Assembly (NCBI GenBank): GCA_015501075.1
Contig: JADNYJ010000016.1
Span: 186,001-250,000 of the forward strand
Length of the DNA: 64,000 nt
Reading direction: 5' to 3'
DNA from: Gymnopilus junonius
Lineage: Eukaryota > Basidiomycota > Agaricomycetes > Agaricales > Galerinaceae
Positions 16,662 to 51,826 of this stretch are shown here, in pieces. The notes under the pieces are model-generated. The model saw only the letters and a list, made by a program, of their open reading frames with translations. It had not been told where the DNA came from and made no database searches. The stretch's first letter is position 1; the number at the start of each line of letters is the position of its first letter. Made by a program: the position numbers and the translations under genes.

Positions 16662-18720
16662 ATGAGTTACCTATCTGAAGAAACTTTGCTCGACGATGGG
16701 CACGTTCAACACGCCAGGCACCGCAGCCACTCTGCATCCAGGGAGCGCAGGTTCTCAGCAGCCACTCTGGTCATACCCATAGCGATAATATGTCGTCTGG
16801 CAATTATGTTACCGTCAACAACGAACTTTCGCATCTTAGAAATCGCTGCTTGTCGGCTATGGTACTATTTGAACAATCCTGGGGCTATTCCTCCAGGTGG
16901 TGGTGGAATACCAGATGAAATGTGCAAGACAGGCGCAGTGGACAAGTACTACGCGGCCATGTCGTCCCTCCTTTCTGTGGGCGATGGTATAGGAAGTAGG
17001 TTATCTCCAACTTGGCTTTTATGATGAAGGTAAACTAATATATCGCATTTGTAGCTGTTGTTGGCTGCGCCGCCGCTGGGTACTTCGGTTCTAGGATTGG
17101 ACGAAAGCCTGTCCTATTGGGGGTGCTTTCAATTGCTGTCATTGGCCAGATTTCCGTCGTTTTCTCTCAGATCCTCGGAGGATGGTTGGAATTCGTGTTC
17201 TTTTTTGTTTGGGCTGTCTGTCAGACGATTGGCAATGCCTTCACGGCCATATTCGTCATCAATATGTATATCGTCGATGTGTCTGGGGCAGAGGAAAGGT
17301 ACTCTTTTTGACCTTGGGTCCTATATATGTTCTCAAGTACTTCAATGAAGGACTGCAGCCCTCAGCAAAATCGCAGGATGGGCCGCATTAGGTAAATTTC
17401 TTATTCGACCTCATTGATTTCATTGTTCAAACTCCAGTCGTACTCCAGGCGGCGCTTTATCGTTTTCTCTTGGCGGCACAATAACAACGCAATCTCATAG
17501 CACGCTCACGGTGTACTTCGTGTCGTCAATCATCCTCATTTTGTCATGCATCTACATTGCTCTTATACTGCCCGAATCATTCCCTGCCTTTAAACGCGCT
17601 GAACTCCGTCGTCAACGTGAAGAGGAAGCACCTCGAATAGCACAGTCGTGGCTCGAAAAAGTCAAGTCATCTATGGCTATGATCACAGAACCTTTGCAGC
17701 TGCTCAAGCCTGCATACGATCCGGCCACGGGCAGATTTAACTGGCGTTTGCTGTACTGTGCGATACATGTGTTTATTGTCACCTTAGCTGATGGATATGC
17801 TGTCCTCGCGATGATCCTTTACTTTACGGCTCATTATAAATATTCCCCTGCTCAGGTGTGTCCCTGTCCATTCTCGTGGTTTTGTATCTTATATTACACT
17901 CCAGACTGGATATGTTCTAACCACCCTCAACATCACGGGTGTTGTAGTGCTGACGGCAATTATTCCTCAAATTGTTCGTTACCTCCGACCTTCATACCAG
18001 CGGAAGCAACCTGTAGCATTGCCCGAGGAAGGGCTAGCTTCCGAAAATGATGGTGCTAGCAGTGAATCTAAACAAGAAGTCGTGTCTGAGACTTCTGATC
18101 ATTTGGATGTCCATATTACAATTGGTTCTTGGGTCATTGAAGCAATCGCCTATCTCGGCGTCGCGACGACTACGACACTTACCTCTCAGCTTGCTTGTCA
18201 GTTCCAATCTAAGATCCTCTGTTGTACTCTTTCATTTACTCTTTTTCAGCTGTGGTGTGCATTGGCCTCGGAGCTGGGCGTAATCCTGTTTTCCGCAGCT
18301 TGGTTGCAGCCTCTGTAGATCCCTGAAGCAAGGTGAATATTAAGGACCTTGCTCTATAGATCTTTATACTCAAATCCTTTCTTTTTCATTCAAAGGCGAG
18401 GCTTTAGCTTCCATTGAAGTTGTTTCAAGTCTGTCCTTGATTATTTCACCTATTCTGATGGGGAGCATCACCACCTGGTGAGTTCAAATTTTTTTAATAT
18501 TTCCAGCACGTCAACTTATTTGAGATAGGACCATCACCTCTATGCCGCAAACTATTTTCTGCGTCCACGCCGTACGTGACTTAGCTAGCTATCATACCTT
18601 TAGTATGTGCTTGTACTGACAGATGCCATGATCTAGACGATTATCTTGCTTGGAGCATCAGTGCTCTTCTTGATTAGAGATTCCGACCGGTATCAAAAGC
18701 CTCGCATTGTCCTTGAATGA
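16662..18720 (+). CDS. MFS transporter flanking the RiPP-like cluster (one frameshift)
   Basis: The gene is spliced from about eight exons and encodes a 12-helix transporter of roughly 530 residues. Blocks seen are RRFSAATLVIPIAIICRLAI (helix 1), SSLLSVGDGIGS, GYFGSRIGRKPVLL (the loop 2-3 G-x-x-x-D/G-R-x-G-R-K/R signature), NAFTAIFVINMYIVDVS and GALSFSLGGTITT, with a charged central loop, and TIILLGASVLFLIRDSDRYQ at the end. It resembles drug or tetracycline-type MFS exporters in Agaricomycetes. In the second-last exon the frame stops at 18322 unless one C is added to the CCC at 18321-18323 (DP-LKQG). It lies convergent with the repeat-precursor gene, 434 bases away, so it could export that product; this is inference. 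It could also be a fresh pseudogene. Confidence 0.7.
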
Positions 18721-19153
18721 ATACTCTTTTTGGCACCTATACAATTCCAAGATCTTGTACCTGGACTGAGATGCTCAAGTACCATAGTACCCATCAATTA
18801 TGGTCGATTTTCCGGCTGTCTGATTTGAATTGGCATCTTTCTTACATTAAATCAAGAATATGTCGCTTGATAAAACATTAACCGGCAAGGTCCGCGACAA
18901 GGATCGAGTAACCAAAGACCTGTAAATATGCGCCACATATAACATATTTGGAAATTCAAGAAACATCTAGCCACGGATGGAATTTGAGTCACATAAGTTG
19001 CAAGCCATGCACGTCTCCCGGTTTCCATGTCACTCGTGTTCGTGTTTCAAATTTCATCCTATATATATACAAAAACTGATTTCTATGTTCACCGTTCAGC
19101 AAAGTAAAAGAAATTGCATGTCAAATCATGGCCATGGCTAAAGCCTAAGATAC
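18721..19153. other. Gap between convergent MFS and precursor genes
   Basis: This holds the two 3' UTRs. It is AT-rich, with a TATATATAC run at about 19063. No open frame of interest and no copy of the 39-nt repeat was seen here, so the repeat array stops sharply at 19217. Confidence 0.4.
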
Positions 19154-20976
19154 TCAAGCTTGGATGGCTAATTGAGTTATTAGAAAGCTGAATCAAGCTC
19201 AGAGGTTTTTGCCTACCGCGACCGTAACGGGATTGAACGTCATCGGTGAATTCCTCTTTTAATACGCATGCATCATCAGTTTATCTCATCTTAAGTCAGC
19301 CACTGTACAACACTTACCACGGCCATAACGAGATTGAACATCATCAGTGAATTCCTCTTTGTACGAGTATAGGTTAGTGTCTTCAAGTTGTTCAATTTCA
19401 CCCAACATCTACTTACCACGACCATAACGAGATTGGACGTCGTCAGTGAACTCTTCTGGTAAGGTAGGTGAGATAAACTCAATGACATCCTAGAAAAAAG
19501 ATGAGCTTACCACGTCCATAACGAGATTGGACATCATCAGTGAATTCCTCTGAAGATATATTGAGCTTCATTTTCGTATTCGAAAAAATACTACCTACCA
19601 CGACCGTAGCGAGATTGGACATCGTCGATGAATTCCTCTTTAATGAAGTTCAGGCGTTTTTCTTGTTCGACATGAAGGACCACATACCACGACCATAACG
19701 AGATTGAACATCAGCAGTGAACTCCTCTTTGGTCGCAGCTCAAGGTCTTTTCATCTAGATTGAAAGCTGTGCACGTACCTCGACCGTAACGTGACTGGAC
19801 ATCATCAGTGAATTCCTCTGTCAACATTTCGTTTGCATTCCCCACATAGCTATAAAATTCTCCTTACCACGACCATAACGAGACTGAACGTCATCAGTGA
19901 ATTCCTCTAACGATGACAAATATCATCAATCTCTTCTTTGTAAAAAAGAGGACACCGGACACCTACCGCGACCGTAGCGGGATTGAACATCATCTGTGAA
20001 TTCCTCTGTTTCATTCTCGATCAGCTGGGACAATACTGAGTGAAAGTCTATAGGTTACCACGACCATAACGGGACTGAACATCGTCAATGAATTCCTCTT
20101 TAGTAATGTCAAGATATTGGTCAGTCTTCATCGAACTAATTCAAAAAAATACACTGACCGCGTCCGTAGCGGGATTGGACGTCGTCGGTGAATTCTTCTG
20201 AAATTGGTAGTATACCAGTTATTTCTGTGGTCAACATAAAGGCAATGTATTAGTAGCTCACCACGACCGTAGCGGGACTGGATGTCATCCGTAAATTCTT
20301 CTATAAACAGAGCAGTCTCAGCAGGAGACAGTGAGAAGGCGCTTAGTCCAATTACTGCGACCATAATGGGACTGAACATCGTCAGTGAACTCCTCTATTT
20401 ATCTGTTAGTTTATCCTGGTAGCAAATTTGAAACTGGTAAGCTTACCACGTCCATAGCGAGACTGAACGTCGTCAGTAAATTCCTCTGTCAGAGCGAAGG
20501 CGTTAGACTCTGTCCACTGCCAGAAATTTGGCTACAAACCACGGCCGTAACGAGATTGAACATCGTCGGTGAAGTCCTCTGTTCAGGGAAGATGCGTTAT
20601 TAAATATCTGTGGTCCACCGGAGCTACCAACTTACCTCGGCCATATCGAGACTGGACGTCATCCGTAAATTCCTCTGTTGGATATCAATACTTAATCAAA
20701 CAACTTCAGTTTGATTCGTACCGCGACGTCGAACATCGTCTATCTCTTTTGTTGGAGGTCCTTTAATATATAACTTTTGTTTAAGCTGTACGGACTCACC
20801 AAGATCAGGTGAATAGTTGAAAGGAGCTCTCCTGGAAAGTCCTGCTTATGGTCATTAGCACAAGAGTCAGCAGTCGGTGTTTTTAAATGCTCACCTGCTT
20901 CAGCAGGGACGACGGGCACAGCCAATGCAGCTGTCAAGAGAGGGAGGAGGACGATGAACACACGGGAAAGCTGCAT
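19154..20976 (-). CDS. Secreted repeat-peptide precursor (putative dikaritin-type RiPP precursor)
   Basis: Twenty exons join to 801 nt, or about 266 residues. Exon 1 (20895-20976) encodes a signal peptide (MQLSRVFIVLLPLLTAALA). Exon 2 (20800-20841) contains LSRR, and exon 3 (20722-20760) contains EIDDVRRR; these are two Kex2-type sites bounding a spacer. Sixteen 39-nt exons follow, at 20636, 20540, 20447, 20356, 20262, 20159, 20059, 19967, 19868, 19779, 19688, 19599, 19511, 19417, 19318 and 19217 (left ends). Each encodes one 13-residue repeat, consensus EEFTDDVQSRYGR. The last exon (19154-19167) adds four residues and TGA. All introns are 39-64 nt, GT-AG and phase 1. Repeat junctions read RYGR/E, an R-x-x-R furin-like site. 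Secretion, cleavage at each junction and oxidation by the neighbouring UstYa enzymes are expected by analogy with ustiloxin-type precursors. The product is unknown. Confidence 0.85.
19217..20674 (-). repeat. Array of sixteen 39-nt coding repeats with 47-64-nt intronic spacers
   Basis: The unit period is 88-103 bases. Exon copies differ mostly at synonymous positions (GAT/GAC, TCT/TCC/TCA, CGT/CGC/CGA). Amino-acid changes are few: E2D (20540), R10H (20356), E1K with V7I (20262), T4I (20059, 19599) and D5A (19688). F3, D6, Q8, S9, Y11, G12 and R13 never change. The introns share almost nothing beyond splice signals. The regular spacing imitates a CRISPR array, but the coding and splice pattern explains it. 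Confidence 0.92.
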
Positions 20977-22337
20977 TATGAGAAAAAGCTTGATGGGTTC
21001 GAGTTCTTTCGACTAAGAAAGGTGGGAGTGTGCAGATCAGGTCTCTATAGTATTTAAAGTCTCGATTAGTGGCCACCTAATCAGAGTTGGCTTATGCACA
21101 TTTCCGACTCAATAGCGAAAATTTGGCTCATGGAATGGAGTACTCGTTTCTTTGTCCAGAATGAGTTACTGTAAGCATGTGAGCCTTCTATTTGGTATAA
21201 ATACGAAGAACATGTACATTTTTGGGAGTAGGAGAGGACATGCGGTGATCAACTGCTCCGCTTAGGTCGCATTTTGTTCAAAAAGAAATAAGAAGTTCCA
21301 CTCAAAGCGCACTCCTTTCTGCTGAAAGCGAATCAATAGCCATTGCCACTTACAAATGGAGTAGTAGTTATTACTAGTGAATGAGCACTAGAACTTCAGA
21401 TTCCGAGAAGGATCCCATGACATGACAGTCTTACTTTACTACTGCTTCATTTACGACTCCAACATTCGCACACCAATATTTTAATCTTGACAGCTCATAC
21501 ATACCCAGGTTTCGATATTTTTAAACCTAGTACACCCATATGTCGTACTAGAAAGTCCCGAATGAGGTGAATCGCGATCATATGTGGGACAACAGTCACT
21601 TTCGGGTTTGTAGGTCAAGTGTGGGCTGAAGGAGCCTGAAGCGCTGACATTTGAAATTTAGTCCGGCCCCGAGCACCAAATATTGGAATTAAAGCAAGTT
21701 TCTTCATATAATCGTGATCAAAGGTACGACTTCACATTATATCGAAGTCTGTCTACGAGAGACTAGCAAGTTTCCCAGACTGGATGTCGAGCCGGTCTTT
21801 ACTGGCTGCCATCCGCAACTTCGTAAAAGGGTACAAACGTAACGAAGGAGCACCATCCCAGTACAGTGAACTGGTCTGAGAAAATGACCCTCTTTCCAGA
21901 TGGCGTTTAATATAATAGCTAACAAGGAAGTATTCCATGACCCCACCCAATTACATTGTTGATGAAGTAAATGGAACAACTTGATCGGTTTTCTACCAAA
22001 AAAAAGAGAACTGTGGTAAAGCGATCAGGTGTCTTTCATGGACATCAAATGGAGTCGAGGGGATTTAAATCGCAGTCCAAGAAGGCTTTCGCTTTGCCTC
22101 ACCGCATTTCATCCTACTACAGATAGCACATTTGGGGCTTAAAAATCCCCTACTGCTTTCTCACAGAGGAGAAGATGAGGAGAATTGCATTTTAAGCGGT
22201 CATAGAATTTCAAGTCAGTGTTGACCCGAGGTAAAATTCAACCAAAGTTCTAGCCCAGCCGGGCGTGATGCCTTTTATTTTGATTACAGTCCGCCTTCTA
22301 CCACCTTATCAAAACCCACTTCTCATCGTTGCTCATC
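20977..22337. other. Divergent intergenic region between precursor and first UstYa gene
   Basis: About 1.36 kb separates the two divergent starts, so it probably carries both promoters. A TATAAATA on the plus strand at about 21195 is too far from the UstYa start to assign. The 60-100-codon open frames at 21737-21979 (minus) show no domain. No regulator gene is visible here or elsewhere in the cluster. Confidence 0.45.
21051..21058 (-). promoter_or_regulatory. Possible TATA box of the repeat-precursor gene
   Basis: On the minus strand the bases read TTTAAATA, about 75 bases upstream of the start codon at 20976. This leaves a reasonable 5' UTR if transcription starts 25-35 bases downstream. 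It is a sequence match only. Confidence 0.4.
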
Positions 22338-23420
22338 ATGTTTTCCAATCGGTCTTACTCACCTGTCGAACAACTCGACGAGGAAGAAAGTGCATCTGAA
22401 AAGCTTCTAACGCATTGGTTGGACCCGCATAGGCAGCTCAAGCTTTCTCGATATCGCAAGTTCTGTATTCAATATTGGGCATACTTCACTCATGGTATAT
22501 TGCTGTTCATGTCGGCTCTGTTTTTCTGCCTGTGGATCCGTGCTCGAACACAGCGTCCAGAGGAACCTGTGTATTGTAAGCCATTTAACAATGCCTAGCG
22601 GGAAATTTTTGAAAGGCACCGTTACAGCTCCTGCTAATGAAGCTGTCGAATATCTGAACTCACTCACGACGTTTAATGGCACTTTCAACCACCCGTCCGA
22701 ATTCCGTGGCCATCCTACTCCTGAAATTGATGCTGCCTGGATGAGGATATCGCAGGGAGGTAAGATTTTTAGTTTTAGCCAGAGACACATTGTTAAAATT
22801 TCTCTGTGAATAGTCAAGCCTACGCGCTTGACTCTAGAACAGGTTTTAAAGGTGGGAAAGAAGGATTCACCGTCGAAAGTCAAGTTTCGCGATGAGGACG
22901 GAGGAGGTTACATGGCATCCATGGAAGTAACTCATCAACTGCATTGCTTGGTATGCAATTGAAACTCAACTCTGGTGACTGAACTGACATCCGATCCAGA
23001 ATATGCTTCGAAAATACACCTATCACGAGTATTATGAAACGTTTGATCCTTCTTTCACTGAAGCCAAGCCAGAGGTTTTCAGAACGCATCTTGGTAAAGT
23101 TGTTGTTAGCTGGGTGATTTCGATCCTGACTTATCCTTTCAGATCATTGTGTGGAAATACTCCGTCAGAATCTCATGTGCTCTGCGGACGTTGGGATGAT
23201 CACTTACGAATGGGTCAAGTAAGAAATTCGTGTGCATGATCAAGCACTATCTAACGGTTCCAGCAGAGGTTTCAGTGAACCATACCCAGACTTCAACACA
23301 AAGCATCAGTGCCGGAACTTCGATAAGATTCTGGAGTGGGGTTACAAGCAAGCGGTCCACATTCCGAGGGATCATGTTGCAAGATTCGGCTATGAGATTG
23401 ACTTGACTATACCCCCGTAA
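22338..23420 (+). CDS. UstYa-family (DUF3328) oxidase, copy 1
   Basis: The gene splices from seven exons into about 265 residues. A charged cytoplasmic start is followed by one membrane segment (HGILLFMSALFFCLWIRA), then an ER/Golgi-lumenal domain. Both family motifs are present: VTHQLHCLNMLRKYTY (H-x-x-H-C, split by an intron at about 22951) and DHCVEILRQNLMC after the intron at about 23094. The closing region has FNTKHQCRNFDKILEW. UstYa proteins are thought to be copper-dependent oxidases that cyclise or hydroxylate core peptides in dikaritin pathways. Introns are 40-56 nt and every junction keeps frame. It lies divergent from the repeat-precursor gene. The enzyme class is a firm assignment; its action on that precursor is inferred from position. 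Confidence 0.88.
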
Positions 23421-23940: not shown

Positions 23941-25061
23941 ATGAAGATGACTCTCTCAAGAAAGGTGTACGAGCCACTTCCCGTGAATGATGCAGACAAC
24001 GATGGGAGCTCTGAGAAGCTACTAGGCGCTGATGAAACCACTGTCAGTCCCAAAGCAGCGTCTCATCGGAGCCCTTGGATTATGCACCTAGGAATATTCA
24101 GCTTGTATACGATCACCTTTCTTGGACTCTCTGCACATTTCTTTGACCGGAACCCAAAACGGTTGAAAGACGGTTGTTTACTTGAACAGTCGATGTATTG
24201 TACGTTTCGACGTTTCCAAGCCAGTGCAAAAGCTGATATCGTTACCAAGCACCTGTACATGAGGTTGTCGAGTATTCTGTCATTCGATTTAATGGATCCT
24301 TGGACTTTTCTTCGCCCTACAAGGGGCATCCGTCAGCAGCCCTTGATGAGGCCTGGGATAGAATCACTACAAATAATTCATGTAAGTCACGGTTTTCGGG
24401 AGATGGTTCACAGATCTCAAAAGTACATTCACAGTGTGGCCAATGAGAATTTCTGATAAGGATCTCGAAAAAATCAACAAAGGCGGACGGGGATCCAATG
24501 TCAAGTACAGAGAAATCGATGGTGGAGGCAACATGGCATCTGTCGAAGTCTTTCATCAGTTGCACTGCCTCGTAAGTCCGTTCTAGCTATCCTTAACAAA
24601 ATAAACACTGACCTTACATTCGATACTTAGAACATGCTTAGAAAGTATACTTACCCAAAGGAGTATCCAGAGTTGCATGAGCTTTGGAAAACCCAGCCGA
24701 AGTTCATACGCGGCCATCTAGGTATGATTTTTGCTTTCAAGATGGAGTTGAAGGCCGATTGCCGTTTAGACCATTGCATCGACATGATCAGGCAAAACTT
24801 GATGTGCGTTGCTGATGTCGGCATGATATCGTGAGTGTCAAATCCTCCATGGGCATATGGGAGATAGTTGCTCATTTAGCGGTCTTTAGATACGACTGGA
24901 TATCTGGATGGGACGTGCCGTTTCCCGACTTCAACACATATCATAAGTGCAGGAACTTCGACGCAATTCTCGACTGGGCGACAAAGCATAGGGTCCGCAT
25001 TCCACAAGACCATATGGGACGTATAGGGAACGAAATTAACCTCCCTGAGCCACCTATTTGA
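23941..25061 (+). CDS. UstYa-family (DUF3328) oxidase, copy 2
   Basis: About 265 residues in seven exons. One membrane segment follows the charged start (IMHLGIFSLYTITFLGLSAH). The lumenal domain begins with SPVHEVVEY and SSPYKGHPSAALDEAW, the usual entry sequence of the family. The two metal-site motifs are VFHQLHCLNMLRKYTY (intron at about 24571) and DHCIDMIRQNLMC (after the intron at about 24722). The end reads FPDFNTYHKCRNFDAILDW. Intron positions match copy 1, which points to tandem duplication; the conserved stretch KHRVRIPQDH pairs with KQAVHIPRDH in copy 1. Known dikaritin clusters often need two different UstYa proteins (for example ustYa and ustYb). The start could be 23941 or the Met two codons later. 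Confidence 0.88.
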
Positions 25062-26017: not shown

Positions 26018-29000
26018 ATGGAGCGACCGCTCGAGTATCCTGCTCAACCATGGTACGTAGTGGCTTGATTCCTCCAATTTCTGTGTCATACTAACATTGT
26101 ATGCAGGTACTTGCGAGTTCCTTTCACGTCGTCGAAGCATTCAATGAAGGAGAGACACAAGGAGGACCAACCGACTATGACCCCAGAGGCGTCTGCTGGC
26201 TTCTTCAGTTCTCTTACCTTTGGTTGGATGACGGCTATCTTGTCACTTGGCTATGCGCGCCCTCTGGAAATATCCGACCTGTATGCACTACAGGATGAAC
26301 GGTCCGCGTCGCGCATAGGTAAATTAATTGAAGAGTCCTTTGAACGTCGCCGCGAGTCTGCCGAAGATTACAATAGAAAGCTCGAAGCAGGGACTGTCAA
26401 GCCAGGCTGGCGAGTGGTCTGGTGGACTCTGTTGGGGAACAGAGCGGAAAGGGAGAAGCATTGGAGGAACGGTGGCGGACAGAGACATCCTAGCCTTTTT
26501 CTGGCCTTGAATGACAGCGTGAAGAGATGGTTTTGGTCCGCAGGTCTATTGAAGGTTTGTTCAGTCTTTTTTCCAAGCCATTGCCATTGACGTGTCTCAT
26601 AAGATAATCTGCGATACCCTGACGATCTTGAGTCCTCTTCTAGTCCAAGTAAGGGGCCCGCTAGTTCATTGGGTTCATTAATTGATCATTTTCCTTCCAG
26701 GTTATCATCAACTTCGCTTCAGACTCATATACTGCTCGGTCCCAAGGAGAGAAACCTCCGCCTTTGTGGAAGGGTGTCCTGCTAGCTTTAGCTCTCTTTG
26801 CAATGCAGTTCATTGCCTCCTTTTGCCAGCATCATTATTGGTATAGGGCTTCTACGACCGGAGTTCTCCTTCGAGGCGGCTTAATAGCTGCCATCTATTC
26901 CCGCACATTTAGACTTTCCTCTAGAGCACGCGTATCACTCCCTAATGGTCTTTTACTCACACATATTGCTTCAGACGGTCTGTCTTATCCTAATTGTGTG
27001 CTATACTTTACTTACTTTTTCGATTCCAGCCTCCAGAATTGATGTCAGCGCAGGCCTTGCTCATATAGCCTGGACCTCCCTTGTTCAAATTATGATCTCG
27101 CTCGTTATTCTTCTTGTTAATCTGGGGCCCAGTGCCCTTGCCGGTTTCTCTCTTTTCCTCATGGGTATTCCTGTGCAAAGCTGGATCGTGAAGCGGTCAT
27201 ACGCCACAAGAACCAAGAGCATGATCTTCACTGATAGAAGAGTCAAGCTTATTCAGCAACTACTGTCTGGTATACGTGTTATCAAATTCTTTGCCTGGGA
27301 GGTCCCCTTTCTAAATATCCTTTACGGAATAAGGAAAAATGAACTAAGGTAAATGAATTTTGGAGAACAATGGACAGAATTTTTGGTCTGAGGACCAATA
27401 TATTGATGTTTCTCGTTTAGATATATTCGGTGTCTACTTCTCATTCGCGCATTCAATAATGCCGTTGCGGCCTCTTTTCCAATCCTCGCGACTATTTTGG
27501 CTTTCATATGGTGAGTTGTTATTGATAGGCTGCACGCCAAGTCTTGGCTTACCACGGAGCTTCTTTCGCAGCTACTCTCTTTCTGGCCGTGAGTTATTCC
27601 GATTACCTTGTGCTATCTGCCAAAGTGAAGTCGTGAAACCTACCGATTAGATTCTCTGAATCCCGGAATTATATTTAGTTCCCTTTCGTTGTTCCAGCTT
27701 CTCAGGACGCCTGTTATGCTCCTCCGTGAGGCTTACAGCTTTTGCTGATTAACCATCACTTGCTTATAAACCTCTTCCATGATTCTTTAGCCATTTCATT
27801 GAGCAGCATTACTGACGCCTATAACGCACTTTCTCGACTGTATTATGTCTTCGTTGCCGAGACAGCGAGCGATGACAGGATTATGGACCCTAACGCCGAA
27901 GCTGCCGTTACAGTAAAACACGCATCTTTTACGTGGGAAGTGTCAGCTTCAACCAGCGACGAGACTTTCAAAGCAAAGCGAAAGGAGAATAAGAAAAAAT
28001 CCCAGGAAAGCCCTTCAGAAAAGAAGCTACTCCCTGATACAGTCTCTGAAATTGCGGTGTTCCGCTTGGATGACGTCAACATGGTAGTACCGCGCGGTCA
28101 ACTTTGTGCGATCGTTGGACATGTCGGTTCTGGAAAATCGAGTTTATTGCAAGGTTTAATCGGTGAAATGCGCAAGACGCAAGGCACGGTCACATTCGGT
28201 GGCAGCCTCAGCTACTGTCCGCAGAGTGCGTGGATCCAGAACGGCACTGTTCGCGAGAATATTTGCTTCGGTAAACCGTTTGACAGCGAACGTTATTGGA
28301 AGGCCATTCACGACTCGTGCTTGGAGGCCGAGTGAGTTGTCTCGTTATTATCCATTTTTCACGTCGGATTTACGTTGGATAACTCATTTAGCCTTGCACT
28401 CCTTGACCATGGAGATCTGACGGAAATAGGAGAAAAAGTTCGTGTATTCATTATTCTTGCATTACATTGCCTCGTTTTTGATATCGATTACCTTCAGGGT
28501 ATCTCACTCTCAGGTGGACAAAAACAACGATTGAATATATGCCGGTCAATATATGCCGACACTGATATACAAATTTTTGACGATCCCTTGTCAGCCTTGG
28601 ATGTACGTTTGCCAAAGTTTTTGTACAATGAGGGAAATACCCATGTCTTGTTCAATGCTCTCAGGCGCATGTAGGAAAGGATGTATTCCAAAATGTCCTG
28701 CGTTCAAACGGACAGAAGACCACGAGAATACTTGTCACCCACGCCCTGCACTTCTTACCCCAAGTCGATTTCATCATCACGATGTCTGACGGACATATCG
28801 CCGAACAAGGCACCTTTGAGCAGCTCATGGCGAACGAGGAAGGTGCTTTTGCAAAGTTCATCAAGGAGTTTGAACGTCAGAAAAATGAAGAAGCCGAAAG
28901 TGCGGAGGAAGAAGAAAACACATCTACGAAAAATTCTGAACCTTCTGCGAACAAAGAGGTGAAGGCGCCAGCCAAAGCACTGATGCAAATGGAAGAACGG

Positions 29001-31752
29001 GCAGTCGGAAGTGTTTCTGGTCCTACATATTCCACCTATTTTGCTGCCGGGAAGGGCCAAGTTATTCTTCCCTTGATCTTCGCCTCGCTTTTCCTCTCGC
29101 AAGCCTTCAATGTCTTTTCTTCGTATTGGCTGGTTTATTGGGAAGAAAGGTAAGATTTATTGTTCTTTGCACAGTCAAGTCGTTTTTAAATGCGTGCAGA
29201 AAATGGCCCGAGTCTCAAGGTTTCTACGTATGTAACGTCTTCCAACTGTGTACCTGTTTCGCTCATCTATTTCTCGGATAGATCGGTATTTATTCTGGCC
29301 TAGGTATTGCTCAGGCAGCGGCCACTTTTTTCCTTGGAAGCTTATTTGCTATGCAAGCCTATTTTGCCAGCCGGGAGCTCCATCGCGTGGGTAGCAATAT
29401 TGCCGATTTCTATAGTTTCGCGTGTCTAACCATTTTATTCCAGGCCTCTGTAGAACGCGTCATACATGCGCCAACGTCTTTCTTCGAGACCACTGTAGGA
29501 AATTCCTCTCCCGACATTGCAGTCTTGAACAATCGATTAACGTTTTGATGTAGCCCCTGGGAAGAATTATGAATCGCTTTTCGAAAGGTGAGCATACTGA
29601 TCCTGGACTTGATTCACGAATTCACGACTCGATCTAGATATTGGTGCGATTTGCATGGCAATTTCATATGTCAAAGGCGATTAAAACAGTGCCCAGACTC
29701 ATTGGACAACCTCCTTGGGGATGCATGGAGTTCTGCTGCACAAAGTCTTGCATCAATCATTGGAGCGATTGTCTTGATCGCTGCAGTCTTCCCCTACTTT
29801 TTGATTCCTGTCATTATTCTCAGTGAGTTCGCATTCTTCCGGTCGTTGCCTGCGAGGTTGAATGAGCTTTGCAGCCATTTGCTATTTCTATTTTTCATTA
29901 TTTTTCAGGGCCAGTGCTAGGGAGTTGAACGTGAGTTACATGAATAATTAGACTAATGAACACGTACTGACTTTCAATCTCAGCGGCTGAGTTTGTCGTC
30001 TACCTTCTTTTCCTCCACCCATACTAATGGGTTTTGAAGACTCTATTCTGCGGTCCACTCTTGTTTCTCACTTTTCCGAATCTCTGTCGGGTTTGCCTAC
30101 TATCCGTGCATACGGAGAAGTCACTCTTTTCCAAAGCGAAAATGAGAAACGCATAGACAATGAGAACAGGTAGGCTTTTTTGATTCCAACGACTCACATT
30201 GCGGAACCTGACATCAGAATGGCAGAGCTTACTGGTTAGTCATCGCGAGCGAGGTACATATGGCGGATCGCTTGTAATTTGCCACCTTTTTTACTCACAA
30301 CCACCATAGAGATGGTTGGCGATCCGCCTGGATGTTCTTGGAACGCTTCTTATTTTCATCGTTGCCATGCTTGCGGTCTTGGGGAGATCCATCATCACAC
30401 CGTCACAGACAGGTATCATGCTTTCCTATATTCTGTCCATACAATCAGTCAGTCATTCCTGTCATTGTGCTGAGCCTCAGTTCTCATTTTCACCAGTCTT
30501 TGAGCCTTGTGGTAAGACAAGGTGCAGGGGTCGAAACCTTGATGAATAGCGTTGAACGCATTGTTCATTATGCTAAAGAAGTCGAACAAGAAAAATACAA
30601 GGGCGATTCCAATTTACAACCTCCATCTTCATGGCCAGCAACAGGCAGCATAGAAATGAATGATCTTCAGCTTTGCTATCGCCCAGAACTACCACCCGTC
30701 TTGGCAGGCCTGTCAATGCGGCTTGAGTCTGGCGAGAAGCTTGGCATTGTTGGACGGTATGTATCAAAATGACTTGTTGATATTACGACAACTGATTCAA
30801 GTAACTTAGAACTGGTGCCGGCAAATCCTCCATTATGGTAGCTCTCTATCGTCTGGTTGAACCAAGTTCGGGTTCGATCAAGATCGATGGAGTGGACATC
30901 TCGACACTGGACCTTGAAATACTGCGGCGTTCAATCTCAATCATTCCACAAGAAGCTGTTAGTGTTTTTCTTTTGCTGATACTAGTTTCTAATGAAGTTT
31001 TCATTTGGCTCGCTACTCCAGGTGCTTTGTACGTGTCTTTTCAGTGTTACGAAATGCTTTTCTTAAACCTTTTTGCTGTCGCATTATATAGTTCCTGGAA
31101 CTGTACGTTCCAACCTTGATCCTTTTGGTCAACATGGCGACGCAGTGTTATGGGATGCCTTGAAGAGAGCTCACTTGGTTCCGAAGGAGGCTGACGAGAA
31201 GTCTATTGTCACAGTCACGCATGCCAACCGCTTTATGCTCGACGCAACTATTGACGATGACGGAAGCAACTTGTCCATGGGGGAGGTACGTTTTGTCACA
31301 ATATTGCAAAGACGATCATTACCAAATCTTACTTTCATCCCTTCAGCGTTCTCTAATCTCATTGGCACGAGCCCTAGTGAAAAAATCTAGAGTATTGGTT
31401 CTGGATGAAGCTACGGGTGATTTTCATTCTTTTTATATGTCGCCCTGTCTAATAGCATTTCTCCAAAGCTTCCGTGGATTATGAGACAGACAGAAAGATC
31501 CAAGACACAATTGCGCGTGAATTTCGTGATCAGACTGTATTGTGTATTGCACGTAAGTGTTCGGACGTTGTGTTCCCCTGGTGTTTTTTGACATGTTTAC
31601 CCTCTGCCTGAGATCGCCTCCACACGATAATTGGATATGATCGTGTATGTGTCATGGACGCAGGACGTGTTGCCGAACTCGACACGCCTGCCAGCCTGTT
31701 CGGCCAACAAGGATCTTTAGAAGCATGTGTAACCAGTCCGGGATCTCGCTAG
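26018..31752 (+). CDS. ABCC-type (MRP/Yor1-like) full ABC transporter
   Basis: The gene has more than twenty exons and encodes roughly 1,300 residues as TMD1-NBD1-TMD2-NBD2. It starts [12 protein letters not shown] with a 44-base first exon. NBD1 has Walker [10 protein letters not shown] (28117), signature LSGGQKQR (28508) and Walker [12 protein letters not shown] with Asp after the usual Asp, as in ABCC NBD1. NBD2 has Walker A TGAGKSS (30815), the variant signature [16 protein letters not shown] across an intron, Walker B VLVLDEAT, and H-loop [12 protein letters not shown] charged linker (28880-28960) joins the halves. I traced intact frame through the difficult junctions, including a 6-base exon (29638-29643, DID). 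ABCC exporters move glutathione conjugates, drugs and secondary metabolites. Its place next to the UstYa genes suggests product export or self-protection, which is inference. Confidence 0.87.
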
Positions 31753-48671: not shown

Positions 48672-51600
48672 ATGTCTTTTCCTCAAGACACCAAGCATGA
48701 AAGCGCATCCGACGTCGAGAAAGGCGGCGAGCTAGGCGAGTTTTTGATTGGGCGCCTCTCTCCTCTGATAATTATTAACAACTTAAATAGCCGACATCGC
48801 GGCGCTTGCCCTGCCCGAGTTCGATGACCCCAACATCGATAAGGAAGAAGCGATAGCTGGAGTCTTAGGTACAAGGTTTCTTTCAATTATCTTTGGCTTT
48901 TTTCTTACTCTCTTTCAGAGGACGACTCCCCATACCCCGAGGTGCGGTCTGCTGTCGCCAACACGGACGATCCTTCCATTCCGGCAGCATCCTTCCGTAC
49001 TTGGGTCCTTGGTTTGTTCTGGGCTATTATCATCCCGGTAAGTTACCGAAAAGAAAGTTTGTTCAACTGTGCCATTTGACCTCTTTCATTCCTATAGGGT
49101 CTTAACCAGTTCTTCTTCTTCCGTTACCCATCCGTCACAGTCAGCGGGGTAAGCCAATACGATAAGACCCTCATATAAATTGTATTTGCTGACGTGCAAT
49201 TTAGTTCGTTGCCCAACTCTTGATCTTCCCAATGGGAAGAGCTTGGGCTCGCTTTGTTCCTAATGTCAAGATTTTTGGCCTCGAGATTAATCCCGGCCCA
49301 TTCACGATCAAAGAGCATGTCTTGGCAACAATTATGGCGACTGTTGGCTCTGGTAGCGCATATGCAACCGATATCGTTGCTGTCCAAAGGGTGTACTATA
49401 ACCAGACCTACAACTTCTCGTGTAAGCTTCTCGTTTAACCTACGTCCTCTGCTTATCAGCTCACAAAAATCGCCAGACCAATGGTTCGTTGTTATGTCCA
49501 CCCAGCTTATCGGTTTTTCCATTGGAGGTATTGCTCGACGCTTCTTGGTGCAGCCCCCGTCAATGAGTAAGTTTTTTGCGGAAGCAAGCAGGCACTCCTT
49601 ACTGAGCTTATTTTGTTAAGTCTGGCCTGCAAACCTGGTGTCCTGCGCCCTTTTCAACACGCTTCATGCGCAGTCCTACGCCGGTATTGGAAACCGTGGC
49701 GGTATGAGCCGAGAACGTTTCTTCTTCTACGCCTTTGCATGCGCTACCGTCTGGTATCTCTTACCCGGATACCTATTCCAAGCCCTCAGCTACTTCTCAT
49801 GGGTATGCTGGATTGCACCCAACAACGTTCCTCTCAACGAGATGTTCGGTTATGTCCACGGCATGGGTATGAGTCTTATCACCTTCGACTGGGCCCAGGT
49901 AAATTATTCACAGTAATGCGAAAAGTAGTGCTCTGACAGCCATTTTCTTTCTAGATTGCATACATCGGTTCCCCTCTTGCGACACCCTGGTGGGCCGAGG
50001 CTAATATCCTCTTTGGATTCGTGGCCTTCTTCTGTAAGTTTCCAAATATCTACTCATGATGGTTGTTGGACCTATTGTTATCTGTTTTAGGGGTTCTCAC
50101 ACCTGCCCTCCACGTAAGCCGTCTTACTAAGGCGAAGGTTCAACGAGCGCTGACAGTTGTTTATCCTCTTTAGTACACAAACACCTGGTATGGCAAATTC
50201 ATGCCGATCTCCTCTCGTACCTCATACGACAACACTGGAGCTGGCTACAATGTTACTCGAATCCTTAACGCCGATGCTACCTTCAACGAGGAGCAGTACG
50301 TGGCTTATAGTCCTCTGTACCTGTCCACCACCTTTGCTATCGCCTATGGACTTTCATTTGCTTCGATCACGGCAACCCTCACCCATGCCCTCCTCTACTT
50401 CCGCAAGCAGATCTGGACTCAGTCTCGCCGTGCCATGCATGAGCAACCAGATATTCATGCTCGCTTGATGGCTCGTTATCCTCAGGTCCCCGAGTGGTGG
50501 TATGCCACCATTTTCTGTGGGTATCTTATGCTCCGCCAAATTAATTAGACGCTGCGACTAAGACCATTTCATTTTACAGTGACCATGTTTGCGTTCGGTG
50601 TTATTGCAATTGAGGTCTGGGATACCAAATTCCCTGTCCAGTTTTTCATCCTTGCCCTGGTTATCTGTATGTGTTTGGATCATGTGTTTTATATATACAC
50701 TAATTTTTCTTTTCTAGCCTTCGTCTATGTCATCCCCATCGGAATGATTCAGGCAATCACTAACCAGCAAGTCGGTCTTAATGTTATTACCGAGCTGATC
50801 ATTGGCTACGCTCTTCCTGGACGCCCAGTTGCCATGATGATGTTCAAGACGTGGGGCTACATTACTATGGCTCAGGCGTTAACCTTCACTTCAGACTTCA
50901 AGCTCGGCCACTACATGAAAGTTCCCCCTAGGTGCACCTCATTCTTAACGGCCTTTGAACACGCTCTTACACTCTTACATTTTACACAGGGCTATGTTTT
51001 GGAGTCAGGTCGTTGCTACAGTCGTTGCAGGCACAGTTCAACTTGGTGTTCAAGCCTGGATGTTCACCAACATTCCTGATATGTGCTCTCCTACTCAGAA
51101 GGACGGCTTTATTTGTCCATCGACTGAGGTGTTCGGAACTGCCAGTATCATTTGGGGAGTTATTGGTCCTGCCCGCCAATTCTCCAAAGGGCAGATTTAT
51201 TATGGTATGTTCCTCTAATTATAAGCTTCTGCGTGTGTAATCATTTTTTTCTATTAGCGCTTACCTTCTTCTTCCTCATTGGCGTACTTTGCCCTCTTGT
51301 TGCGTATCTCATTAGTTTGAAATGGCCCAACAGCTGGCTCCGCTACGTCAACTTCCCCGTCATCTTCAATGGAACTGGCGCTATCCCCCCTGCCAGCGCT
51401 GTCAACTATATTCCTTGGGCCATTGTCGGTTTCATTTTCCAGTATGTCCTCCGAAGGCGCCACTTCTCCTGGTGGACCAAGTACAACTATGTACTTTCTG
51501 CTGCGCTCGATTCGGGTGTAGCAGTCAGCGCTGTGCTGATTTTCTTTATTCTGCAATATCCAAAGAACGGCACCATTGGTCTGCACACCGTGCAGGTTTG

Positions 51601-51826
51601 GTGGGGTAACACGTCAGTCTATTTTGCTTCTTTTTTTTCGTTTTTTTGAAAATTCCTCGTGACTTATTTCCGCCTTTCCAGCGTACCATTTAACACTGCT
51701 GATGCGTTAGGAACAACTCTGCTCACCCCTGATCCAAATATTGGCTTTTTCGGGTTCGTTTTTTCACCTTTTTGGATTCTCAAAACATGCTCAGACTTTT
51801 CTTGTAGCCCGTCCGTCTGGTCTTAA
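48672..51826 (+). CDS. OPT-family oligopeptide transporter
   Basis: About fourteen exons encode roughly 780 residues. OPT proteins import small peptides (or metal chelates) with protons across the plasma membrane. Family blocks are seen in order: [16 protein letters not shown] (49090), [11 protein letters not shown] (NPG motif, 49289), [16 protein letters not shown] (49540, spliced), [19 protein letters not shown] (49775), [20 protein letters not shown] (49962), [37 protein letters not shown] (50810) and [18 protein letters not shown] (51340). The final exon gives GPSVWS and TAA at 51824. No frame break was found. It sits 17 kb from the RiPP-like cluster with SMC2 between, so a link with that cluster is unlikely. 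Confidence 0.93.

Follow-up and report, generated by a model that had tools for sequence, protein, structure and literature searches.

A predicted UstYa-linked precursor gene of the basidiomycete Gymnopilus junonius with sixteen core peptides in separate micro-exons

Dikaritins are peptides that originate from a repeat precursor and are cyclised by UstYa homologues; the sections of the account drawn on here give five of them as examples, from filamentous fungi or ascomycetes, and describe the precursor UstA as 16-fold repeated and accompanied by two UstYa genes (PMC10512285). The available part of another paper suggests that RiPP-related UstYa proteins can be recognised by two HxxHC motifs (PMC12048977). 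The second closely related group comprises the KEX2-processed repeat proteins (KEPs), whose surveys, as far as the consulted sections state, start from annotated proteins and look for dibasic sites (PMC9769878, PMC7329392). One of these surveys covers 1461 strains, and the accessible portion of its main text mentions neither introns nor exons (PMC7329392), while in the C. cinerea study the proteome was cut at dibasic sites in one of two methods, according to the portion available (PMC9769878).

This work describes a gene in a 64,000-nucleotide stretch of G. junonius DNA (hereafter the window, to which positions refer), which sits on contig C68 of the 58-Mb assembly of this species. The gene, which runs from 20976 to 19154 on the minus strand, is probably a secreted basidiomycete precursor of the dikaritin type, predicted to carry its 16 cores as separate 39-nt exons in phase 1-1. 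It shares with UstA and the dikaritin precursors (ustiloxin, phomopsin, asperipin-2a, victorin and epichloecyclin) a signal peptide, here putative, many near-identical cores and two UstYa-family genes adjoining the precursor, and the number of cores is also that given for UstA in the excerpted account (PMC10512285). It differs from them in its basidiomycete origin, in having one predicted exon per core and in its mostly monobasic YGR junctions, and the locus differs in that no tyrosinase or methyltransferase was found in the parts scanned. With the KEPs of Agaricomycetes it has the secreted repeat precursor in common, and P0121, an orthologue from Agrocybe, carries RR/KR sites, whereas the repeats of the G. 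junonius gene lie in separate predicted exons.

Between 19217 and 20674 on the minus strand, 16 units of the form AG-[39 nt]-GT follow each other at a spacing of 88-103 bp, all in phase 1-1 and all open. Sixteen 39-nt exons, each encoding one 13-residue copy and separated by introns of their own, had been proposed in the initial annotation, and our scan reproduced the units, the layout itself being a predicted splice model. When 19101-21000 was shuffled base by base 50 times, the same micro-exon scan returned no more than two copies; it returned at most two in the rest of the 64-kb window and at most three in 24 other stretches (229 kb, UstYa loci of G. junonius), where the three belonged to a serine-rich low-complexity stretch; the 16-unit array is not explained by chance. 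According to the micro-exon scan and the spliced model, the core exons are located on the minus strand at 20636..20674 (core exon 1, EEFTDDVQSRYGR), 20540..20578 (core exon 2, EDFTDDVQSRYGR), 20447..20485 (3), 20356..20394 (4, an SHYGR variant), 20262..20300 (5, KEFTDDIQSRYGR, with the junction codon A|AG), 20159..20197 (6), 20059..20097 (7, a T4I variant), 19967..20005 (8), 19868..19906 (9), 19779..19817 (10), 19688..19726 (11, a D5A variant), 19599..19637 (12, a T4I variant), 19511..19549 (13), 19417..19455 (14), 19318..19356 (15) and 19217..19255 (16). Ten of the 16 core units read EEFTDDVQSRYGR exactly. The other six carry seven substitutions in total, namely E2D, R10H, E1K together with V7I in the same copy, T4I twice and D5A, and Tyr11 is unchanged across all 16 cores.

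The complete precursor gene (19154..20976, minus strand) is predicted to have 20 exons and 801 nt including the stop codon, encoding 266 aa, with an ATG at 20976 and a TGA ending at 19154. The spliced sequence model has coordinates identical to those of the 20-exon model proposed earlier. Exon 1 (20895..20976, minus strand, 82 nt) encodes a hydrophobic N-terminus that was read, by inspection, as a putative signal peptide. It is followed on the same strand by exon 2 (20800..20841, 42 nt, phase 1-1), modeled with the leader motif GLSRRAPFNYSPDL and an RR site and similar to an exon at C708 and C77, and by exon 3 (20722..20760, 39 nt, phase 1-1), found by scan and model, which encodes GPPTKEIDDVRRR with a likely Kex2 site ahead of the first core. 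The last exon of the model (19154..19167, minus strand, 14 nt), for which the acceptor was picked by inspection, encodes AIQA and then TGA.

The 19 predicted introns are 39-64 nt long and all have GT..AG borders. For 17 of them the splice-site score lies within the range spanned by 15 introns of three deposited UstYa gene models, and for two it lies just under this range (6.7 and 7.3 bits versus a lowest value of 7.9), in a comparison that favours the reference introns because these were scored with a matrix built from themselves. Retention would introduce an in-frame stop for 14 of the 19 introns; of the remaining five, four shift the frame and the 39-nt intron alone is frame-neutral. Being both stop-free and frame-neutral, this second intron, located between exons 2 and 3, is uncertain. 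Read-through would yield a longer protein of 280 characters including the stop, but the Phlegmacium orthologue P0122 lacks the additional residues (SPDLG-PREL-EEF), which favours removal of the intron.

Each of the 18 internal exons is 39 or 42 nt long and symmetric (phase 1-1), and any subset of them therefore keeps the frame. Schistosome micro-exon genes likewise encode secreted proteins in numerous very small symmetric exons; they are unrelated to the present gene and differ from it in having no repeat of one peptide and no RiPP enzymes. The symmetry would allow a gene that, like these, generates many precursor lengths through splicing variation, but the cores are nearly one peptide, so that skipping of exons would alter the dose and not the product, and we consider such a function extremely unlikely.

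Protein searches with the full or the 110-aa precursor gave no match among the deposited G. junonius proteins, and the gene thus seems to be unannotated, which may reflect weak expression or merely a missed model. As it is seemingly unannotated and has no KR, RR or KK at its junctions, surveys of the kind outlined above are likely to miss it twice. Among the matches listed in the open-licence literature, no precedent for an exon-per-core gene was found, in line with the earlier statement that no gene with this architecture had been described. Possible precedents with one exon per repeat were Venturia Cin1 and Epichloe GigA, but the accounts of them and a 2022 review are silent, in the parts drawn on, about introns between repeats. 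A paper from 2024 reportedly states that functional microexons had been undescribed in filamentous fungi before it (PMC11121469).

The precursor is divergently oriented to the gene of UstYa-family oxidase 1 (UstYa1; 22338..23420, plus strand), and the 1361 bp between the gene models (20977..22337) are likely to act as a shared promoter. UstYa1 is followed on the same strand by UstYa-family oxidase 2 (UstYa2; 23941..25061). Each gene has six exons, matches PF11807 and encodes the motifs HQLHC and HLDHC, and both models splice exactly to deposited G. junonius proteins (CPB84DRAFT_1769237 and CPB84DRAFT_1959751, respectively). The locus thereby displays three of the features associated with dikaritins: two UstYa/DUF3328 genes (PF11807) clustered with the precursor, two HxxHC motifs in both of their products, and a secreted multi-core precursor in which 16 cores stand behind the hydrophobic N-terminus, by inspection a putative signal peptide. 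A possible exporter is encoded downstream by an ABC transporter gene (26686..31415, plus strand, extent from Pfam domain matches), with one membrane and one ATPase domain over the Pfam cut-off and a second pair under it. The scan of ORFs and reading frames, which covered less than all six frames of the whole window, revealed no tyrosinase, methyltransferase or peptidase. Pieces of an OPT oligopeptide transporter gene (50549-51649), approximately 25 kb from the UstYa pair, are probably unrelated. Beyond the precursor's 3' end, the opposite strand has an ORF (17418-18050) whose MFS match stays below threshold, at 17 bits versus a cut-off of 33.4.

Three orthologues of the precursor, P0121, P0122 and P0123, were retrieved with a shortened query of 110 aa (E 5e-39, 5e-38 and 8e-11), while the full 266-aa query gave no protein match in a search restricted to proteins of similar length. 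P0121 and P0123 belong to Agrocybe pediades and P0122 to Phlegmacium glaucopus, species that represent two families distinct from that of Gymnopilus. P0122 is encoded on a contig of 43,005 bases, as is P0002, a UstYa orthologue of the same species. P0123 (tag 821398) and the UstYa protein P0004 (tag 821399) have consecutive tags and are both on a 69,357-base contig; no contig or tag link to a UstYa orthologue was seen for P0121. From the equal-sized contigs and neighbouring tags, we infer linkage between precursor and UstYa gene for two of the three orthologues. The initial reading as a RiPP-like precursor thus becomes firmer through the two adjacent UstYa genes, through orthologues of which two out of three lie on contigs matching UstYa orthologues, and through the dibasic sites of P0121 described below. 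For the orthologues the evidence consists of protein sequences, which have 5, 5 and one-and-a-part repeats, and the micro-exon layout is documented for a single species, G. junonius, as a splice model. The ending of the Phlegmacium protein, a core followed by GM, is what read-through of a phase-1 exon into a GTATG donor would produce and hints at micro-exons in this species as well, too weakly so to be counted. In Agrocybe chaxingu, P0006 (UstYa1-like) and P0056 (UstYa2-like) have consecutive tags (NLJ89_g5194 and g5193) on equal-sized contigs; the UstYa1/UstYa2 pair seems to be conserved in this species, in which a protein search found no precursor.

Two further loci of the G. junonius genome, C708 and C77, have the leader motif RRxFNYxPDL, in both cases on a 42-nt phase 1-1 exon that stands behind a 76-nt signal exon and is divergent from a UstYa gene. 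The C708 precursor (L014:6117-6610) comprises AxAMF cores, 11-13 residues apart, in one exon (start position provisional), with KR junctions and one GR. It has in common with the C68 gene the 42-nt leader exon (with RRIFNYEPDL), the repeats of 11-13 residues and the divergent UstYa gene, the product of which (P0009) is 55% identical to UstYa1. Its cores are continuous in one exon, whereas the C68 gene has one core per predicted exon, hence the exon-per-core layout belongs to the C68 gene and not to the whole family. The third leader copy, at C77 (L023:1237-1417; G000:C77:11237-11417), consists of a signal exon and a 42-nt exon with RRRIFNYEPDL; no core repeats were recognised downstream of this leader, and they have perhaps decayed or consist of a single core. 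No second micro-exon array was found in the 24 stretches, which stem from 13 further UstYa contigs; PF11807 matches occur on at least 17 contigs, with C92, C150 and C861 outside the array scan. Weak matches at C576, C253 and C108 (15-19% identical; C108 later with E 0.88) were attributed to chance. The contig pairs C12/C244 and C36/C423 have UstYa matches with scores that are equal or similar, which suggests that both nuclear haplotypes are partly present in the assembly; the precursor array was found once.

These neighbourhoods bear on the question of whether the precursor yields a UstYa-modified product at all. It could instead be a Kex2-processed repeat protein that releases linear secreted signal or surface peptides, with UstYa acting on another substrate or on none. 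The peptides from Agaricomycete repeat precursors are linear and minimally modified in the consulted sections of one study (PMC9769878), and of the 1680 repeat precursors from basidiomycetes in the available part of another, no more than 103 (6%) were recorded with a UstYa neighbour (PMC7329392). Such an unmodified product is nevertheless rather unlikely here, as the UstYa genes adjoin the precursor in G. junonius and linkage is inferred for P. glaucopus and A. pediades, the leader paralogues at C708 and C77 are also divergent from a UstYa gene, and Tyr11 is invariant in the 16 cores.

Processing of the cores was evaluated at the junctions. Fifteen of the 16 post-core junctions are monobasic (YGR) and one is RK, located after SHYGR, because the next core begins with Lys. 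None of the 16 is KR, RR or KK, and the precursor would work like a KEP, yet it is not one under the strict rule. R-x-x-R is a protease site rule to which RYGR conforms in 15 of the 16 copies, with the SHYGR copy as the exception. When repeat precursors of C. cinerea were expressed in yeast, cleavage after a single Arg was reported in the sections available (PMC9769878). In P0121, all four internal core junctions are GGRR or GGKR, and these dibasic sites coincide with the junction that reads YGR|E in Gymnopilus and AKYGR|E in Phlegmacium, which points to a cut site corresponding to the Gymnopilus YGR. P0123 displays YNR at its single visible junction, whereas all junctions of P0122 read YGR and no basic pair stands ahead of its first core; P0121 is thus the sole source of dibasic support. 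In the strict dibasic sense, Kex2 processing therefore does not hold at most junctions of the G. junonius precursor.

The non-dibasic nature of almost all G. junonius junctions would also be expected if the product were an uncut secreted repeat protein, with a function in the wall, in adhesion or as a structural element and with repeats that represent exon modules; duplication of symmetric exons is generally common in structural repeat proteins. The dibasic residues at four out of four internal junctions of P0121, the UstYa linkage and the SRR and RRR sequences of the leader make an uncut protein very unlikely. Borosin and cycloamanide (MSDIN) peptides, another type of product, arise from a cytosolic precursor without signal peptide, with a methyltransferase fusion or an MSDIN leader. 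The 266-aa model has a secretory-type hydrophobic N-terminus and no such leader.

For the preferred reading, a dikaritin-type precursor, the following pathway is proposed. Splicing of the 19 introns would string the cores together in one frame, after which signal peptidase and Kex2 (at SRR and RRR) would take off the leader. A kexin-type protease would cleave after YGR and a Kex1-like carboxypeptidase would trim the Arg, resulting in EEFTDDVQSRYG. The two UstYa oxidases would then cross-link this core, most likely from Tyr11 to a β-branched residue (Val/Ile7 or Thr/Ile4), with a predicted [M+H]+ for cross-linked EEFTDDVQSRYG of 1443.60 or 1441.59 versus 1445.62. For the forms that still bear the Arg, the corresponding calculated values are 1599.703 or 1597.688 versus 1601.719. 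Finally, the product would be exported, perhaps via the neighbouring ABC transporter. The array itself probably grew as units of one exon plus its intron, in symmetric phase, were duplicated. As introns and silent sites diverged later, recombination between the copies would decrease, and copy number would be held as a consequence.

The initial annotation had left open whether the peptide is under selection or the exons are being homogenised, and had proposed a dN/dS analysis across the sixteen repeats. Comparing 12 whole codons per unit in the 120 pairs of the 16 copies, we obtained a mean pS of 0.704 and a mean pN of 0.028, corresponding to a dN/dS of approximately 0.013 with a near-saturated dS of approximately 2.1. 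No association was found between the codon states of different positions (p = 0.26), adjacent copies are no more similar than distant ones (p = 0.63), and silent diversity amounts to 84% of that obtained when codons are drawn at random according to their usage in the two UstYa genes. Arg is always encoded by CGN and Ser always by TCN in the core units, as expected if all units descend from one. Since the silent sites are near-saturated and unlinked, recent homogenisation of the G. junonius array is ruled out in favour of purifying selection on the peptide, which has long been maintained and keeps the copies alike within the array.

The mutual similarity of the 15 introns between cores is no higher than their similarity to UstYa introns (label permutation, p = 0.28), with introns 8 and 14 as one pair that is still alike. 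The full divergence of the introns noted initially stands except for this pair. An intron-only shuffle test had given a mean score of -1.68 versus -2.90, reached in 0 of 200 shuffles; once the introns were compared with unrelated UstYa introns, no excess similarity remained beyond the one pair.

A different pattern is visible between species. I7, A9 and K10 are present in all five units of the Phlegmacium orthologue P0122, and Gymnopilus has V7 (15/16), S9 (16/16) and R10 (15/16) at the same sites. Residues common to the copies within a species imply that the copies moved together at some time; separate growth of the arrays after the split, or an old homogenisation, would explain this within-species sharing. 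Selection therefore answers the initial alternative within the present array, and older expansion or homogenisation may underlie the differences between species.

Taken together, the UstYa-linked precursor gene is real and under selection, and its exon-per-core layout, a predicted splice model, is unusual. The dikaritins named in the sections of the papers drawn on are from ascomycetes (PMC10512285, PMC12048977), and mushrooms are rich in UstYa genes, with 16 in Pleurotus ostreatus according to the accessible part of one report (PMC8893723). The locus supplies a candidate UstYa substrate with a predicted mass, and the same genome holds a paralogue with its cores in one exon, which offers a clean evolutionary comparison. 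One core per micro-exon combined with monobasic junctions is a reason why other such substrates may be missed. More tentatively, and with somewhat less than an even chance in our estimate, it may represent a hidden class of basidiomycete UstYa peptides, with cores as symmetric micro-exons that were built by exon-intron duplication and a copy number frozen by divergence. If so, 16 near-identical products would be encoded without an unstable DNA repeat, and some apparently precursor-less UstYa genes of mushrooms would have micro-exon partners, which stay hidden since 39-nt exons escape gene finders and surveys demand dibasic sites.
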